Shown here one piece after another: positions 7,298-26,455 of a DNA stretch of 33,489 bases. Origin of the DNA: Pirellulales bacterium (GTDB lineage Bacteria > Planctomycetota > Planctomycetia > Pirellulales > Thermoguttaceae); contig JAFGIR010000250.1 in NCBI GenBank assembly GCA_016929515.1, positions 1-33,489 on the forward strand, read 5' to 3'. Under the pieces are notes generated by a model. That model saw nothing but the letters and a program-made list of their open reading frames with translations. It was not told where the DNA came from and ran no database searches. The first letter of the stretch is position 1; every line of letters begins with the position of its first letter. A program made the translations under genes and the position numbers.

Positions 7298-7401
7298 CGT
7301 CTGGCTGACTCGGCTACCACGCGACAGAAGGCCATTCAAGTCCGATTTGGACGCAAAAAAGACCCGGCGCTTCGTGACACCCCCCTGAGGCAGTGAGGTC
7401 C

Positions 7402-8088
7402 ATGGCAACCATTGCTCCTCCGACAACGACGGGAGTCCTCTTCAGCGGAGGGCTGGATAGTGGAATTCTGATCGGTCAGTTTGTGCGCCAGAAGCGAAAC
7501 GTCGTGCCTTTTTTCATTCGATCGGGCCTTGTGTGGCAATGGGAGGAACTCGAAGCCGCCCGGCGATTCACTCAAGCGGTGGCATCCCCCTATCTGGCTG
7601 CTCCTGTCGTCTTGGAACTGCCTCTGGACGATGTTTACGGGGAACACTGGAGCGTGACGGGCACCACGATCCCCGACGGTTCCAGCCCCGACGAGGCGGT
7701 CTATCTTCCAGGACGCAACGCCATGTTGGTGATCAAGGCCGCCACTTGGTGCCAGTTGCATGGAATCGGTGAACTCGCTCTGGGTGTGCTGGGCACCAGC
7801 CCCTTCGACGATGCGCGAACCCCCTTCTTCGAGAATCTCGAAGCCGCGATGAACTGTCCGCCGGCCAAGCCGATTCGACTGACTCGACCTTTTTCCAAGA
7901 TGGACAAGCGCCAGGTCATGCTGCTGGGCCGTGGTTTGCCGCTGGAACATACGTTTTCATGCCTGTCGCCGGTGGGGCGATTGCATTGTGGAGTCTGCAA
8001 CAAGTGTGCGGAACGTCGGAAAGCGTTTCGCCTGGCCGACCTTGAAGATCCAACAAACTACGCCGCGGCCTTGGCACCCAGCGGCTGA
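7402..8088 (+). CDS. queC: 7-cyano-7-deazaguanine (preQ0) synthase QueC
   Basis: A 228-residue PP-loop ATPase. SGGLDS (residues 15-20) is the ATP pyrophosphatase loop. Near the C-terminus Cys187, Cys196, Cys199 and Cys202 (CxxxxxxxxCGxCxxC) form the QueC zinc site. QueC converts 7-carboxy-7-deazaguanine to preQ0 with ammonia and ATP, in the cytoplasm. The middle is divergent: the usual YPDCR stretch is here FDDAR followed by PFFENLEAA, keeping the Asp-x-Arg and downstream Phe but not the Cys. I chose ATG 7402; an in-frame GTG at 7393 would add three residues. The gene is 46 bases before queD, which supports the assignment. QueC-like proteins also occur in defence systems such as Qat and some CBASS, but the queD neighbour argues for the modification pathway. 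Confidence 0.85.
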   Translation: MATIAPPTTTGVLFSGGLDSGILIGQFVRQKRNVVPFFIRSGLVWQWEELEAARRFTQAVASPYLAAPVVLELPLDDVYGEHWSVTGTTIPDGSSPDEAVYLPGRNAMLVIKAATWCQLHGIGELALGVLGTSPFDDARTPFFENLEAAMNCPPAKPIRLTRPFSKMDKRQVMLLGRGLPLEHTFSCLSPVGRLHCGVCNKCAERRKAFRLADLEDPTNYAAALAPSG

Positions 8089-8134
8089 CGGCCGTTGGCC
8101 TTTCGGGTGTCCGTCAAGGAGTTGAATTACCAAA

Positions 8135-8545
8135 ATGTTCCGAGTAACTCGCGAAATCAATTTCTGCTATGGGCATCGTTTGCTGAATTATGAAGGCAAG
8201 TGTGCCCATCTGCATGGACACAACGGTCGAGTGCTGATCACGGCGCAGGCCTCGGGCCTCGACTCGCAGGGGATGGTCGTCGATTTTACGGAAATCAAGC
8301 GGGTCGTTCAGGGCTGGGTCGACGAGCACCTGGATCATCGCATGGTGCTTCGGCGCGACGATCCGGCCGTGGCGCCGCTCGAGAAGTTGGGCGAACCGCT
8401 TTTCCTGATCGACGTGAACCCGACCGCCGAAAATCTTGCCCGACTAGTCTACGACTATGCCACGTCCCAGGGTTTTCCGGTTGTCGAAGTCCAACTCTGG
8501 GAGACCCCCCATTGCCACGCTGTTTACTGTCCCGACAGACCGTAA
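8135..8545 (+). CDS. queD: 6-carboxy-5,6,7,8-tetrahydropterin synthase QueD
   Basis: A 136-residue protein, a normal length for QueD. His14, His27 and His29 are the zinc ligands, in GHRLL and LHGHN. Cys23 in GKCAHLHGH is at the position of the catalytic cysteine of QueD. DHRMVL and NPTAENLARLVY are the other conserved stretches, and the Glu in LWETP anchors the pterin. It converts 7,8-dihydroneopterin triphosphate to 6-carboxytetrahydropterin, the second step towards preQ0 and queuosine. A distant AAGGAG ribosome-binding site lies 13 bases before the ATG. queE is not in the window, so the pathway must be completed elsewhere. A 6-pyruvoyl-tetrahydropterin synthase role is possible but less likely beside queC. 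Confidence 0.9.
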   Translation: MFRVTREINFCYGHRLLNYEGKCAHLHGHNGRVLITAQASGLDSQGMVVDFTEIKRVVQGWVDEHLDHRMVLRRDDPAVAPLEKLGEPLFLIDVNPTAENLARLVYDYATSQGFPVVEVQLWETPHCHAVYCPDRP

Positions 8546-19766: not shown

Positions 19767-20576
19767 GTGTCACGCCGCGAGACCTTTATCGATACGCACT
19801 GCCACCTCTTGCCAGGCGTGGACGACGGTGCCATCACGTGGGAAGACGCCTTGGCCATGGCGAGGGCAGCGGCCGCCGACGGCATCTCGGTGGCCATCGT
19901 GACGCCTCATCAATTGGGCACGAACCGACAACTCAACGGCCCAACGATTCGGGCGAAGACGGCTCATCTGCAACAATTCCTGAACCAGAACCATGTCTCG
20001 CTCCACGTGTTGCCGGGCGCCGAAGTCCGCGTCGAGCCCGACCTGGTCGAGAAAATCCGCGAGGGCGAAGTCCTCACCCTGGCCGATCGAGGCCGCTATG
20101 TGTTGCTTGAACTCCCGCACGAAGTCTACTTGCCGTTGGACGAAATGCTCCAGAACCTGCGTCGCGCCGGCCTGATTGGCATTCTGGCCCACATCGAACG
20201 CAACCAGGGCGTACTCGCTCAGCCGTCCGTCATCCAACCGCTCCTCGACTCGGGTTGCCTGCTTCAGGTGACGGCCGCCAGCATCACCGGAAGCTTCGGC
20301 CCGCATGTCCAGAAGTTGGCTGAGCGGTTGATCCAACAAGGTCAGGTACAGTTTATCGCGACCGACGCCCACGGAGTCAACGTGCGGCGGCCCCAGATGC
20401 AGCGTGCCTTTCAGAGAACCGTCGAGTTGGCCGGCTATCGCACGGCCTGCGACCTGTTCTGCAACCATCCGGCCGCCGTTGTCAACGACCAACCACTGGC
20501 TCTCTGGACGAAAAAGACGTCTCACTCGAAACGGCCGGGCCTCGGTCGTTGGTTCCCCTGGAGCAAGGCCGGGTGA
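19767..20576 (+). CDS. CpsB/YwqE-type PHP tyrosine-protein phosphatase
   Basis: A 269-residue PHP-domain protein starting at GTG 19767 with AAGGA seven bases upstream. Family motifs in order: DTHCHLLPGVDDG (9-21), IVTPHQ, PGAEVRV, LLELPHE, LAHIERN, LQVTAASITGSFG and FIATDAHG. These His and Asp residues bind three manganese ions in CpsB/CapC/YwqE enzymes, which dephosphorylate the tyrosine kinases that control capsule and exopolysaccharide length. The partner BY-kinase is not in the window. The stop TGA shares its last base with the next ATG (TGATG), so the downstream metalloprotease is translationally coupled. The polysaccharide genes downstream support a role in surface-glycan control. Confidence 0.87.
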   Translation: MSRRETFIDTHCHLLPGVDDGAITWEDALAMARAAAADGISVAIVTPHQLGTNRQLNGPTIRAKTAHLQQFLNQNHVSLHVLPGAEVRVEPDLVEKIREGEVLTLADRGRYVLLELPHEVYLPLDEMLQNLRRAGLIGILAHIERNQGVLAQPSVIQPLLDSGCLLQVTAASITGSFGPHVQKLAERLIQQGQVQFIATDAHGVNVRRPQMQRAFQRTVELAGYRTACDLFCNHPAAVVNDQPLALWTKKTSHSKRPGLGRWFPWSKAG

Positions 20577-22717: not shown

Positions 22718-24649
22718 ATGGCATGGATGCGTGGTTTACTCTGCTCGTCGGGTTTGATGGATCGAGGACGAGCCATCCGGCAGACACTGAACCATCCAGA
22801 TCGATGGGGGCGGCACGCGGTGGCGCTGATCCTCCTGGCGCCCGTTTTGGTGGCCATTTATTACACGAGCTATTGGCTTCGGTTTGAAGGCTATTTTGGG
22901 CGCGACGCCCTCAACTACTTCTCGTCGACGGTCGCCTGGTTCGTGGCCATTCAACTGGCCGTTTTCGCCTTCTTCGGCGTCCATCGTGGTTGGCGAAACT
23001 TTGTCACGTTCTACGATCTGGTGACGCTCGTCCAAGCCGCCACCTGCGCTTTGCTGCTCACGGCCATGGTGAACCAATTCGTGTTGCCGCGCCACGTGAT
23101 TCCTCGTAGCGTGTTTCTGCTCGATTGGGGTGTGGCAATCGTCGTGCTCGGAGGCACCCGCGCGGCGCTTCGCGTCCTCGAAGAGCGGAGCTGGCGGCTC
23201 CTGACCGAGGCCGACAAGGTGCCCACGCTCATTGTGGGCGCCAATCATACGGGCGAGTTGCTCTGGCGTTCGATCAAGCGGAACGACCTGCCCTATCAGG
23301 TTATCGGATTCGTCGATGAAGACCCGGCCCAGGTTGGAAGCCGCGTGGCGGGCGTGCCGGTCATCGGCACCATCGAACAGACTTGCCAATTAGCCAACCG
23401 GCGCGGCGTCAGCGAAGTCTTGATCGCCACCGGCGAACTCTCCGGCCGGCAGGTGCGCGCTTTGATGGACGACGCCCGAGAACATGAAATCAACGTCAAG
23501 GTGCTTCCCGGTTACGATCAGTTGATCACCGGCAGCGTTTCGCTGCAACCCCGCGCCGTCGAAATCGACGATCTGTTGCGCCGCGAACCGGTCCAACTCG
23601 AACTGGAAAACATCCGCCAGTGGATCGACCATCGGGTGTTGCTCGTGACCGGAAGCGCCGGCAGCATCGGCTCGGAAATCTGCCGCCAATTGCTGCGCTT
23701 CTCGCCCAAACGAATCGTCCTGGTCGACCGGACCGAAACGGGGCAGTTTTTCCTCGAACGCGAACTCCGCAAGATGGCTCGCGGCATTGAGCTCGAAGTC
23801 TGCATGGCCGATATTCTCGATACCGACCGCATGCGTACGATTCTCGAACAACACCAGCCCGACATTATCTTCCACGCCGCCGCCTACAAGCATGTCCCGA
23901 TGATGGAAGCCCATCCGGGCGAGGCCGTCAAAAACATCGTCCTGGCCACCCATTGCCTGGCCGATTTGGCCATGCATCATGGCGTCGAGTCGTTCGTCAT
24001 GATCTCCACCGACAAGGCCGTCCATCCAACCAGCGTGATGGGCGCCTGTAAACGGGCGGCCGAAATCTACGTCCAGTCGCTGGCCGAATTGTCTTCGTGC
24101 CGGTTCGTGACCGTCCGTTTCGGCAACGTGCTCGACTCGGCCGGAAGCGTCGTGCCTGTCTTCCGCGAACAGATTCGCCGCGGTGGGCCCGTCACCGTCA
24201 CCGATCCTTGCATGCAACGCTATTTCATGACCATCCCCGAGGCGGCCGGACTGGTCATTCAAGCCGGCACCATCGGCCGCGCCGGCGAAATCCTCGTCTT
24301 GAACATGGGTGAACCGGTCCGAATCGTCGACCTGGCCGCCGACATGATTCGGCTTTCCGGGTTGCGCGTCGGCGACGACATCGAAATCAAGTTCTCGGGT
24401 ATTCGTCCGGGCGAGAAACTCTATGAGGAACTGCACATCACCGGCGAAACCGAGCTTCCCACGCGACACCCCAAGATTTCCATTGCCGACAGCCGGCGCC
24501 GCGAGCCGGCCACCGTGCTCGAACAAATCCAGCGGCTCGAAGCCGTCGCCGACAGCACCGACTCCAAAGTGATTGAACGACTCCACGAAGTCGTGCCCAC
24601 CTATCAGGGCCGCCTTTCGGAAGAGAAGAAGACGCCGGTCGCCGCGTGA
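22718..24649 (+). CDS. FlaA1/CapD-type nucleotide-sugar dehydratase/epimerase
   Basis: A 643-residue membrane protein with AAGGAGG six bases before the ATG. Four membrane spans at about 33-53, 70-88, 104-124 and 132-150 are followed by a first nucleotide-binding fold (168-240, PTLIVGANHTGELLW) and the catalytic short-chain dehydrogenase domain from about 300. VTGSAGSIGSE (310-320) is the glycine-rich NAD loop. FHAAAYKHVPMME and MISTDKAVHPTSVMG (428-442) followed by CKR carry the active-site Ser/Thr, Asp, Lys and the Met-x3-Lys that replaces the usual Tyr-x3-Lys in FlaA1-type 4,6-dehydratases. Members such as WbpM, PglF and CapD convert UDP-GlcNAc to 4-keto-6-deoxy sugars for surface polysaccharide or glycoprotein synthesis. 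It probably provides the first modified sugar for a glycan made with the glycosyltransferases nearby. Confidence 0.9.
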   Translation: MAWMRGLLCSSGLMDRGRAIRQTLNHPDRWGRHAVALILLAPVLVAIYYTSYWLRFEGYFGRDALNYFSSTVAWFVAIQLAVFAFFGVHRGWRNFVTFYDLVTLVQAATCALLLTAMVNQFVLPRHVIPRSVFLLDWGVAIVVLGGTRAALRVLEERSWRLLTEADKVPTLIVGANHTGELLWRSIKRNDLPYQVIGFVDEDPAQVGSRVAGVPVIGTIEQTCQLANRRGVSEVLIATGELSGRQVRALMDDAREHEINVKVLPGYDQLITGSVSLQPRAVEIDDLLRREPVQLELENIRQWIDHRVLLVTGSAGSIGSEICRQLLRFSPKRIVLVDRTETGQFFLERELRKMARGIELEVCMADILDTDRMRTILEQHQPDIIFHAAAYKHVPMMEAHPGEAVKNIVLATHCLADLAMHHGVESFVMISTDKAVHPTSVMGACKRAAEIYVQSLAELSSCRFVTVRFGNVLDSAGSVVPVFREQIRRGGPVTVTDPCMQRYFMTIPEAAGLVIQAGTIGRAGEILVLNMGEPVRIVDLAADMIRLSGLRVGDDIEIKFSGIRPGEKLYEELHITGETELPTRHPKISIADSRRREPATVLEQIQRLEAVADSTDSKVIERLHEVVPTYQGRLSEEKKTPVAA

Positions 24650-24698: not shown

Positions 24699-25679
24699 TC
24701 AAGCGGCCTTGCCTCGCGCTCGGTCGAGCCATGCGGAAAAACTCAGAATCGTTGGTGATTCGCCGCCGGTTTCCGGCGCATCGCAATCCTCTTCAAGGAT
24801 CTGATTCAGCAGCGAGGGCAGCTTCCGAGGAATCTGAGCGACGGCCCATTGCCTTTCGCGGACGCGCTGAAGCAGGGCGTCAATCCGTTCTTGGTAGAGA
24901 TCGCACTGTCCGCGACGCAGGGCCTCGGTGACGATTCGGATCTGTTGAGGATCGCGGCCGAGGCAATAGACCACGCCCGGATGCCGATAGATGGCCTCGC
25001 CGAAACAGAGCACGGGCACACCCCTTGCGAGGCTCTCCAATGCGCTCGAAGAATTGATGCAAGCCACGGCGCGCGCATTCGCCAACGCCTCGGACAGAGA
25101 ACTCGATCGATCCCACCGCCCACCGAGCTTCTCGATGAGCTGGGTCAATTTCCGACTCGCCGGATGGTGCGGATGGGCGCGAATGCGAACCGGCAAACGC
25201 GAGTAGGCACAAAGATCTCGTACGAATTCGACCATCGAGGGATACCACGGCGAATAATGAGAAAGCTGCGTGTCCCGCTCGAACTGCAGAATCACGAGCA
25301 GATCTTCCGCGTCGGGAACCCGCAGAGGCGTTCGTTCGCGGCAATCGATGGGTTCGAGACACCAGCTTACGCCGGCATTGACCCCTTGGGGATCGATCTG
25401 AAACGTGTCGCGTTGAGGATACCAACCCAATTCAGCAAAGAGGATCTTGGCTCCTCTCCGACGCAGTTTCGCGAGCGGTCGCCCGTACTTGGCAATCATG
25501 CCGTTCCAGACGATGGCCACGTCGCACCGGGGTAACGACCGGCTGCAGGTCGTTCGTCCGGAAACGGGTCCTCGCCAGCGGTACACTTCGTGACCAAGCC
25601 GCTCGCAACCCTCCGCCAGGGCATCCAACGGTCCGACACAACGGGGTCCACGACGGGCTTCAATAACAATGTGACTCAC
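24699..25679 (-). CDS. KpsS/KpsC-like capsule biosynthesis transferase
   Basis: A 326-residue protein from GTG 25679, preferred over an ATG at 25730 because an AGAGGGGG ribosome-binding site lies about nine bases upstream and because the ATG would overlap the preceding gene. VILQFERDTQLSHYSPW and RIRAHPHHP, then INSSSALESLARGVPVL and FGEAIYRHPGV, match the second half of the Capsule_synth family (KpsS/KpsC), including the NS(S/T)xxLExL and G-x-AIY stretches. In the characterised enzymes these transfer Kdo from CMP-Kdo to the lipid anchor of group 2 capsules. The N-terminal third is less alike. It lies 17 bases downstream of the GT29-like gene, so both are probably made together. A related glycosyltransferase of another specificity is possible. 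Confidence 0.72.
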   Translation of the reverse strand: MSHIVIEARRGPRCVGPLDALAEGCERLGHEVYRWRGPVSGRTTCSRSLPRCDVAIVWNGMIAKYGRPLAKLRRRGAKILFAELGWYPQRDTFQIDPQGVNAGVSWCLEPIDCRERTPLRVPDAEDLLVILQFERDTQLSHYSPWYPSMVEFVRDLCAYSRLPVRIRAHPHHPASRKLTQLIEKLGGRWDRSSSLSEALANARAVACINSSSALESLARGVPVLCFGEAIYRHPGVVYCLGRDPQQIRIVTEALRRGQCDLYQERIDALLQRVRERQWAVAQIPRKLPSLLNQILEEDCDAPETGGESPTILSFSAWLDRARGKAA

Positions 25680-25696
25680 GGTGAAACGCCCCCTCT

Positions 25697-26455
25697 TCAG
25701 GCAACTCTGTTTGATTCGGCGTTCGGCCACAGGTACCGCGACATGACCGCGTCCAGCGTGACCTTGCCGCTTCGCACGGGCGCGGCCAACAGACGCTGCA
25801 ACAGGTGCTTCTCGGCCGCGGGATCATGCAGCGTCGCGGCGTCGATGCCGGTGTGGCAAAAGTAGTGGCTTGGACCCTCGAAGAACGAAAACCCGGTGAT
25901 GAAGATTGGTCCGCTCAGCGGCGCCAGCACTTCCAGTGCCCAGAGAATGGCCATCATCCCGGTCGTGGGATACTTGCCGATCCGCGAGGTCCACTCGGAG
26001 AACGTGGCGATCGACGGCACATAGACGACGCGTCGGCCGAGTTTCCCCATTCCCAAGGTGATGTGCTGGCCCATGCGGTTGACGATTCGCCGCCGCCGCG
26101 ATTTTCGAAAAACGTTGGGCCGTGAAGAAACGATGTGGTCGGCCAAAGCAATTTCCGGATTGTCGAAGCAAATCGTCTTCGGAGAGAAGTTGGTCATCCA
26201 AATGTCCAGACGGCGACCCACCGCGTGCTCGAAACCAGCAAGCTGAAAGTTGTTCATCCGCACGACCAGATCGTGTTGGTCGATGTAGGACCCGGCCGAC
26301 AAATCGCGCAAATAGCCGGCATTTCCCACAATCGCGATCGAGCGGCCGCGCATGGGCCAGTCCAAAACAAAATCATCCCATGGGCAGACGCGCATCGCCC
26401 GCTGCTTCCATAAATAGGGCAGATTGCCGACGAAACCCGAAACACGCAGCCTCAT
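25697..26455 (-). CDS. GT29 family (sialyltransferase-like) glycosyltransferase
   Basis: A 252-residue protein with GGAG six bases before the ATG. All four sialylmotifs can be placed. Motif L at about 38-90: RSIAIVGNAGYLRD, then IDQHDLVVRMNNF and AGFEHAVG. Motif S at 163-190: PTTGMMAILWALEVL, then GPIFITGFSFF. Motif III: SHYFCH (His197). Motif VS: HxxxxE at His210 and Glu215. His210 is at the place of the catalytic base of ST3Gal1. The two cysteines that form the L-S disulfide in animal enzymes are absent (Ala41 and Leu178 region), and there is no membrane anchor, which fits a cytoplasmic enzyme. Family members transfer sialic acid from CMP-sialic acid. Donor and acceptor here are unknown. 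The KpsS-like gene follows directly. Confidence 0.85.
   Translation of the reverse strand: MRLRVSGFVGNLPYLWKQRAMRVCPWDDFVLDWPMRGRSIAIVGNAGYLRDLSAGSYIDQHDLVVRMNNFQLAGFEHAVGRRLDIWMTNFSPKTICFDNPEIALADHIVSSRPNVFRKSRRRRIVNRMGQHITLGMGKLGRRVVYVPSIATFSEWTSRIGKYPTTGMMAILWALEVLAPLSGPIFITGFSFFEGPSHYFCHTGIDAATLHDPAAEKHLLQRLLAAPVRSGKVTLDAVMSRYLWPNAESNRVA

Follow-up and report, generated by a model that had tools for sequence, protein, structure and literature searches.

Enzymes of family GT29 transfer with inversion, with the histidine of sialylmotif VS as base. Bacterial members, reported in 2018 from alpha-, gamma- and epsilon-proteobacteria and one archaeon, have neither transmembrane segments nor disulfide cysteines (PMC5811610); planctomycetes and viruses go unmentioned in the main text of that report, in the available part of which we also found no gene partner and no linkage to KdsB. 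In plants, Arabidopsis RCKT1/MGP2 is a GT29 needed for Kdo on RG-II and has been proposed to be an inverting CMP-beta-Kdo transferase (PMC11288761). No assayed bacterial GT29 was found in the literature that we searched.

The protein described here is encoded in a stretch of 33,489 nucleotides of DNA from a Pirellulales bacterium, which was analysed as a whole and is called the window below. With the bacterial GT29s of 2018 it has in common the sialylmotifs and the lack of both a transmembrane anchor and conserved disulfide cysteines (PMC5811610), and it adds a sound new member to a bacterial family that is known but biochemically unexplored. It resembles RCKT1/MGP2 in its GT29 fold, proposed CMP-Kdo donor and inverting transfer, but the plant protein is a Golgi enzyme whereas ours is a short bacterial protein without an anchor. 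The likeness to animal ST3Gal, ST6Gal and ST8Sia extends to the motifs, the fold and the predicted catalytic histidine, and the differences lie in the disulfide pair and the anchor, which the window protein lacks, and in a host without NeuB. Campylobacter CstII and its relatives (GT42) are also matched by a profile of bacterial and phage GT29s (CstII at E 3e-10), which links the two CAZy families at the level of sequence, but the window protein itself matches GT29 and not GT42 in Pfam. Bacterial GT29s (PMC5811610) and an Arabidopsis GT29 as proposed Kdo transferase (PMC11288761) are already published; new are the spread of GT29 in planctomycetes and phages, a KdsB operon, a synthetase fusion and a KpsC-like pairing seen once, the operon and the fusion being the freshest points.

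The GT29 protein and its sialylmotifs

The GT29 gene starts with an ATG that has GGAG upstream, and its features are as follows.

25697..26455, minus strand: GT29 (sialyltransferase family) glycosyltransferase, 252 aa; from PF00777, ST3Gal1, AlphaFold2 and Foldseek
26198..26344, minus strand, aa 38-86: sialylmotif L, RSIAIVGNAGYL...IDQHDLVVRMN...VGRRLDIW; from alignments, with PF00777 at aa 39-90
25886..25972, minus strand, aa 162-190: sialylmotif S, YPTTGMMAILWALEVLAPLSGPIFITGFS, YPTTG...ITGF; from the phmmer match and alignments
25856..25867, minus strand, aa 197-200: sialylmotif III, HYFC (H197-Y-F); from sequence and alignment
25811..25828, minus strand, aa 210-215: sialylmotif VS, HDPAAE, that is HX4E, with His210 as the expected catalytic base; from the homologue alignment

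In Pfam, the protein matched PF00777 (Glyco_transf_29) at E 1.9e-18 and scored 67.3 bits, where the cut-off is 23. Searched as a single sequence with phmmer it reached porcine ST3Gal1 at E 3.8e-9, a value that fell to 8.9e-20 with a profile of five planctomycete GT29s, and a profile of 74 bacterial and phage sequences recovered all solved GT29s in the PDB (best E 3.4e-26); 65 of these 74 homologues passed PF00777 at E<=0.001. The AlphaFold2 model (pLDDT 81.4, pTM 0.81) returned GT29 sialyltransferases as all of its top 30 PDB matches in Foldseek, at E 4e-8 to 1e-5 and TM scores, by query length, of 0.48-0.59. The fold predicted for the window protein by the two programs is the GT-A-variant GT29 fold, the one on which the initial annotation had staked its reading.

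That annotation had also read all four GT29 sialylmotifs in a bacterial protein, and rightly so, for none of L, S, III and VS is missing and their columns are conserved across the 74 homologues, with the H of the VS motif kept in 65 and the E in 64. It was equally right about the missing disulfide cysteines and anchor. Cysteines occur only at positions 24, 96 and 200, and the classical disulfide pair is absent because Ile40 takes the place of the L-motif Cys (C in RCAVVGN) and no Cys occurs in the S motif; no N-terminal hydrophobic segment or anchor was apparent when the sequence was read by eye. Disulfide and N-terminal anchor are traits of animal GT29 enzymes only, and the window protein shows neither. 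These absences are typical rather than special, and not defining for the bacterial branch, because they are the same in the 2018 bacterial GT29s (PMC5811610); with that report in print, the annotation's view of GT29 as mostly eukaryotic understated what was known.

The GC content and codon usage of the GT29 gene and its partner are typical of the window, and a foreign composition of the pair was rejected on these measures. A recent transfer from a eukaryote was considered as well; in a tree from which plant and protist sequences were left out and whose deep forks are poorly supported, the window GT29 stood on its own branch outside three animal sequences. PHROGs gave no match for the window GT29 nor for the four phage GT29s tested.

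A KpsC-like partner gene

KpsC (GT107) and WbbB (GT99) retain configuration through a covalent Asp adduct, and the donor of these enzymes and of a GT29 that transfers Kdo would alike be CMP-beta-Kdo. The QXXXD motif was defined in PMC10148158, and in retaining beta-Kdo transferases its Asp has been proven to be the nucleophile (PMC10148158, PMC12887879). The gene next to the window GT29 carries the following features.

24699..25679, minus strand: putative retaining beta-Kdo transferase of KpsC/KpsS/WbbB type (Capsule_synth), 326 aa; from PF05159 and the family profile
25272..25286, minus strand, aa 132-136: QXXXD motif, QFERD; from alignment with the motif that holds the nucleophile in beta-Kdo transferases

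The open reading frame in full spans 24699-25730 on the minus strand, and the likely start is a GTG at 25679 preceded by AGGGGG as Shine-Dalgarno sequence. This start lies 17 bases beyond the GT29 stop, so that the gap of 17 bases first given between the GT29 and a Capsule_synth-type gene is correct. The partner is the sole PF05159 match in the host genome (E 6e-8), and the match covers profile positions 148-275 of 310 only. As a single sequence it was matched to KpsC at E 0.18 only, while a profile of the partner and four relatives from the phylum reached KpsC at E 1.1e-10 and WbbB GT99 at E 3.5e-6. Its QFERD aligns with QVESD of KpsC, and Q and D are invariant in the partner-family alignment; the N-terminal half, where beta-Kdo transferases of this type have a general base Glu and a general acid His, is too divergent to be aligned confidently. 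The structural model, which was compared with the modified GT-B fold of these transferases, is poor (pLDDT 51) and cannot stand by itself; KpsC entries head its Foldseek list (E 2.1e-5, TM 0.37), which lends support at most. Against the KpsS equivalog NF050054 (NCBIfam) the partner scored 20 bits, far under the cut-off of 600, which makes it beta-Kdo-transferase-like rather than KpsS. From these alignments and profiles, we regard the second gene as a putative remote relative of the KpsC/WbbB-type beta-Kdo transferases, with which it has in common the QXXXD motif and the profile match, and from which it differs in being remote and in adjoining a GT29.

Relatives of the partner within the phylum are themselves remote and occur in 10 of 392 genomes, its own included, and none was found in a scan of the viral collection. 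No KpsC-like gene was found near any other GT29 gene among the GT29 loci searched; candidates in three of them (L104, L111 and L115) were rejected as weak matches to an unassigned protein, which in L104 has no match in Pfam. Both the GT29 and the KpsC-like partner are lacking in two genomes of the same family. The pairing is not a conserved module, because it was found in the host genome only; it is an accessory feature of the host lineage, seen once.

GT29 relatives and synthetase genes in bacteria and phages

A scan of genome contigs with the single window sequence gave nothing, and the five-sequence profile was needed to find relatives. Few genomes of the phylum carry a GT29 (5 of 392). In the genome and viral collections relatives were found in Planctomycetota, Pseudomonadota, Desulfobacterota, Spirochaetota, Bacteroidota and Bacillota, and on many phage-type contigs. 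A CMP-ulosonate synthetase gene was present in the fetched stretch at 35 of 102 GT29 loci and lay less than 300 bases away at 20, near-duplicate viral contigs included. For the 21 viral records that carry PF02348, this domain lay at most 500 bp from GT29 in 11, with 1.3 expected, and at most 5 kb away in 19, with 5.9 expected; the observed proximity was reached by 0 of 20,000 position shuffles at either distance, a significance that is nominal, given some dependence among the viral contigs.

In a Planctomycetia MAG the GT29 gene (L030:1269-2036) overlaps a kdsB gene by 4 bases, and in Rhodoblastus (L040) kdsB adjoins GT29; both synthetases score above NCBIfam KdsB subfamily cut-offs. Two other planctomycetes encode a fusion with CTP_transf_3, a domain like that of CMP-ulosonate synthetases, as the N-terminal and GT29 as the C-terminal part (L020:9474-10691 and L021:9414-10646, both minus strand), an enzyme that may produce and consume its own donor. 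Most of the tested phage synthetase neighbours score as PseF/NeuA-like and not as KdsB-type, so the donor varies within the GT29 family. KdsA, NeuB or both were found in 19 of 22 GT29-bearing genomes (KdsA only in 7, NeuB only in 4, both in 8), and CTP_transf_3 is found even in the three that have neither, which are two MAGs and the host. Most simply read, these data would make CMP-ulosonates the donors of bacterial GT29s, with Kdo used by some and nonulosonates by others.

Several arrangements were noted in passing. On viral contigs including L043, L045, L099 and L118, GT29 abuts synthetase genes of PseF/NeuA-like type, and some of these contigs also carry NeuB. Genes for a HAD phosphatase, an HMGL-like aldolase, a KdsB-type synthetase and a GT29 stand in a row in Rhodoblastus sphagnicola (L040:4332-8591, plus strand), and the cluster may serve to make an ulosonic acid of an unusual kind. 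A bacterial MAG has three tandem GT29 genes (L029:6238-8651, plus strand), followed after 1.1 kb by a CTP_transf_3 gene, and tandem short GT29 reading frames of about 172 and 189 aa form putative pairs at L046:4474-5549, L104:4477-5549, L114:4477-5549 and similar viral loci.

Donor supply and proposed function

The host draft, 92.3% complete, comprises 4.6 Mb in 503 contigs, of which C386 is the window, and gene absences in this genome are based on family searches. The host KdsB, next to pyrG, is split over two contig ends (C167:8466-8824 and C465:1-347), which places a gap of the assembly right in the Kdo pathway; WaaA/KdtA is present. Family searches found no KdsA in the draft, which leaves the pathway incomplete as assembled, but KdsA occurs, along with a strong match of KdsB type, in both of two near-complete genomes of the same family, and its absence here would therefore most simply be an assembly gap. 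The same searches found no NeuB in the host, and NeuB is absent from both same-family genomes. Host matches of NeuB or DAHP-synthase type were rejected as NeuB or KdsA, being one AroF-type protein, and a third CTP_transf_3 protein (on contig C306) was rejected as NeuA, since it looks MobA/SpsF-like; no NeuA-type protein was found in the host, the strong PF02348 matches being the KdsB halves and the MobA/SpsF-like protein.

CMP-Kdo is thus likely to be available in the host. Because KdsB and WaaA are present, NeuB is not and KdsA occurs in same-family genomes, CMP-Kdo is more likely than CMP-sialic acid to be the GT29 donor, and CMP-sialic acid is unlikely in a host without NeuB. KdsB and WaaA are no proof that the GT29 uses Kdo, because both are needed for lipid A anyway. 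The initial annotation had suggested a surface glycan containing an ulosonic acid and had proposed a search for NeuB/NeuA or KdsA/KdsB; genes of CMP-ulosonate metabolism do exist (KdsB, WaaA), which upholds the general idea while making Kdo, rather than sialic acid, the likelier acid.

We consider it probable that the window gene encodes a cytoplasmic inverting GT29 that uses a CMP-ulosonate, most likely CMP-beta-Kdo, to place alpha-Kdo on a surface glycan, and that the partner adds beta-Kdo. His210 would serve as the catalytic base, and the alpha-linked Kdo would be left on a glycan built inside the cell. The partner would draw on the same donor, probably through a retaining double displacement via Asp136 of its QXXXD motif, and would add beta-Kdo to the same glycan; one donor would then yield both anomers, because an inverting GT29 and a retaining partner would share CMP-Kdo. 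We infer that a surface glycan of this planctomycete would contain an ulosonic acid.

Other donors have to be weighed against this proposal. To our knowledge, CMP-Neu5Ac is the donor of all characterised animal GT29s; NeuB, a synthetase and GT29 lie close together or on one contig in four phage contigs (L043, L045, L099 and L118), and four GT29-bearing genomes (G395, G400, G402 and G407) have NeuB without KdsA. The window GT29 could on this basis be a true sialyltransferase or a transferase of another nonulosonate (Pse/Leg/Neu-type), the NeuB/NeuA pair being missing from the draft or the donor environmental, but the lack of NeuB in the 92.3%-complete host and both near-complete same-family genomes, and of a NeuA-type protein in the host, makes this unlikely in our judgement. 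We also think it very improbable that a different CMP-ulosonic acid is transferred, be it a Dha-like one or a heptulosonic acid formed by way of an aldolase. Substrates can vary among KdsB-like enzymes and the Rhodoblastus cluster hints at such chemistry, but neither the window nor those parts of the host genome that were searched point to a pathway of this kind, and the KdsB of the host lies beside pyrG, a common setting for the lipid A pathway.

The protein retains all four motifs with their catalytic His and Glu, and GT29 and synthetase genes are strongly linked over bacteria and phages; both observations argue against a GT29 fold that was retained for a non-CMP donor or has lost its activity, which we think very improbable. 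A precedent for such a donor would be the plant GT29 GALT29A, reported to be a galactosyltransferase. It is listed within the plant GT29 family and named as a galactosyltransferase (PMC11288761).

With Kdo transfer as the preferred reading, a broader proposal can be made tentatively, although we lean slightly against it: a bacterial GT29 would transfer Kdo, not sialic acid, from CMP-Kdo by inversion and would share its operon with a beta-Kdo transferase that retains configuration, the single donor giving alpha- and beta-Kdo on one glycan, and the bacterial branch, made up of Kdo and nonulosonate transferases, would be the source of both the Kdo function in plants and the sialic acid function in animals. 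A compact GT29 without anchor or disulfides, in a host with CMP-Kdo genes but no NeuB, would test Kdo against sialic acid as the origin of GT29. The KdsB-GT29 operon and the synthetase-GT29 fusions are good assay targets, and a bacterial Kdo-type GT29 would be useful because RCKT1 is reported to be hard to express and assay (PMC11288761). It has been proposed that eukaryotic GT29s arrived with the alphaproteobacterial mitochondrial ancestor (PMC5811610), and the occurrence of GT29 in Planctomycetota, in several further phyla and on phage contigs bears on this idea.

No CMP-ulosonate synthetase gene lies within the window, in which two further genes bear on polysaccharide synthesis.

22718..24649, plus strand: Polysacc_synt_2 (CapD/PseB-like nucleotide-sugar dehydratase), a convergent neighbour outside the pair; PF02719, E 3.4e-109
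19767..20576, plus strand: CpsB/CapC capsular polysaccharide phosphatase family, a neighbour; PF19567, E 5.8e-55

The best NCBIfam match of the dehydratase was PseB, at 163.8 bits and below the cut-off of 407.75. With CpsB/CapC-type and CapD-type genes nearby, an exported polysaccharide is plausible. Elsewhere in the window, at 7393-8545 on the plus strand, QueC-like and QueD/PTPS-like genes adjoin each other and belong to ordinary 7-deazaguanine metabolism.
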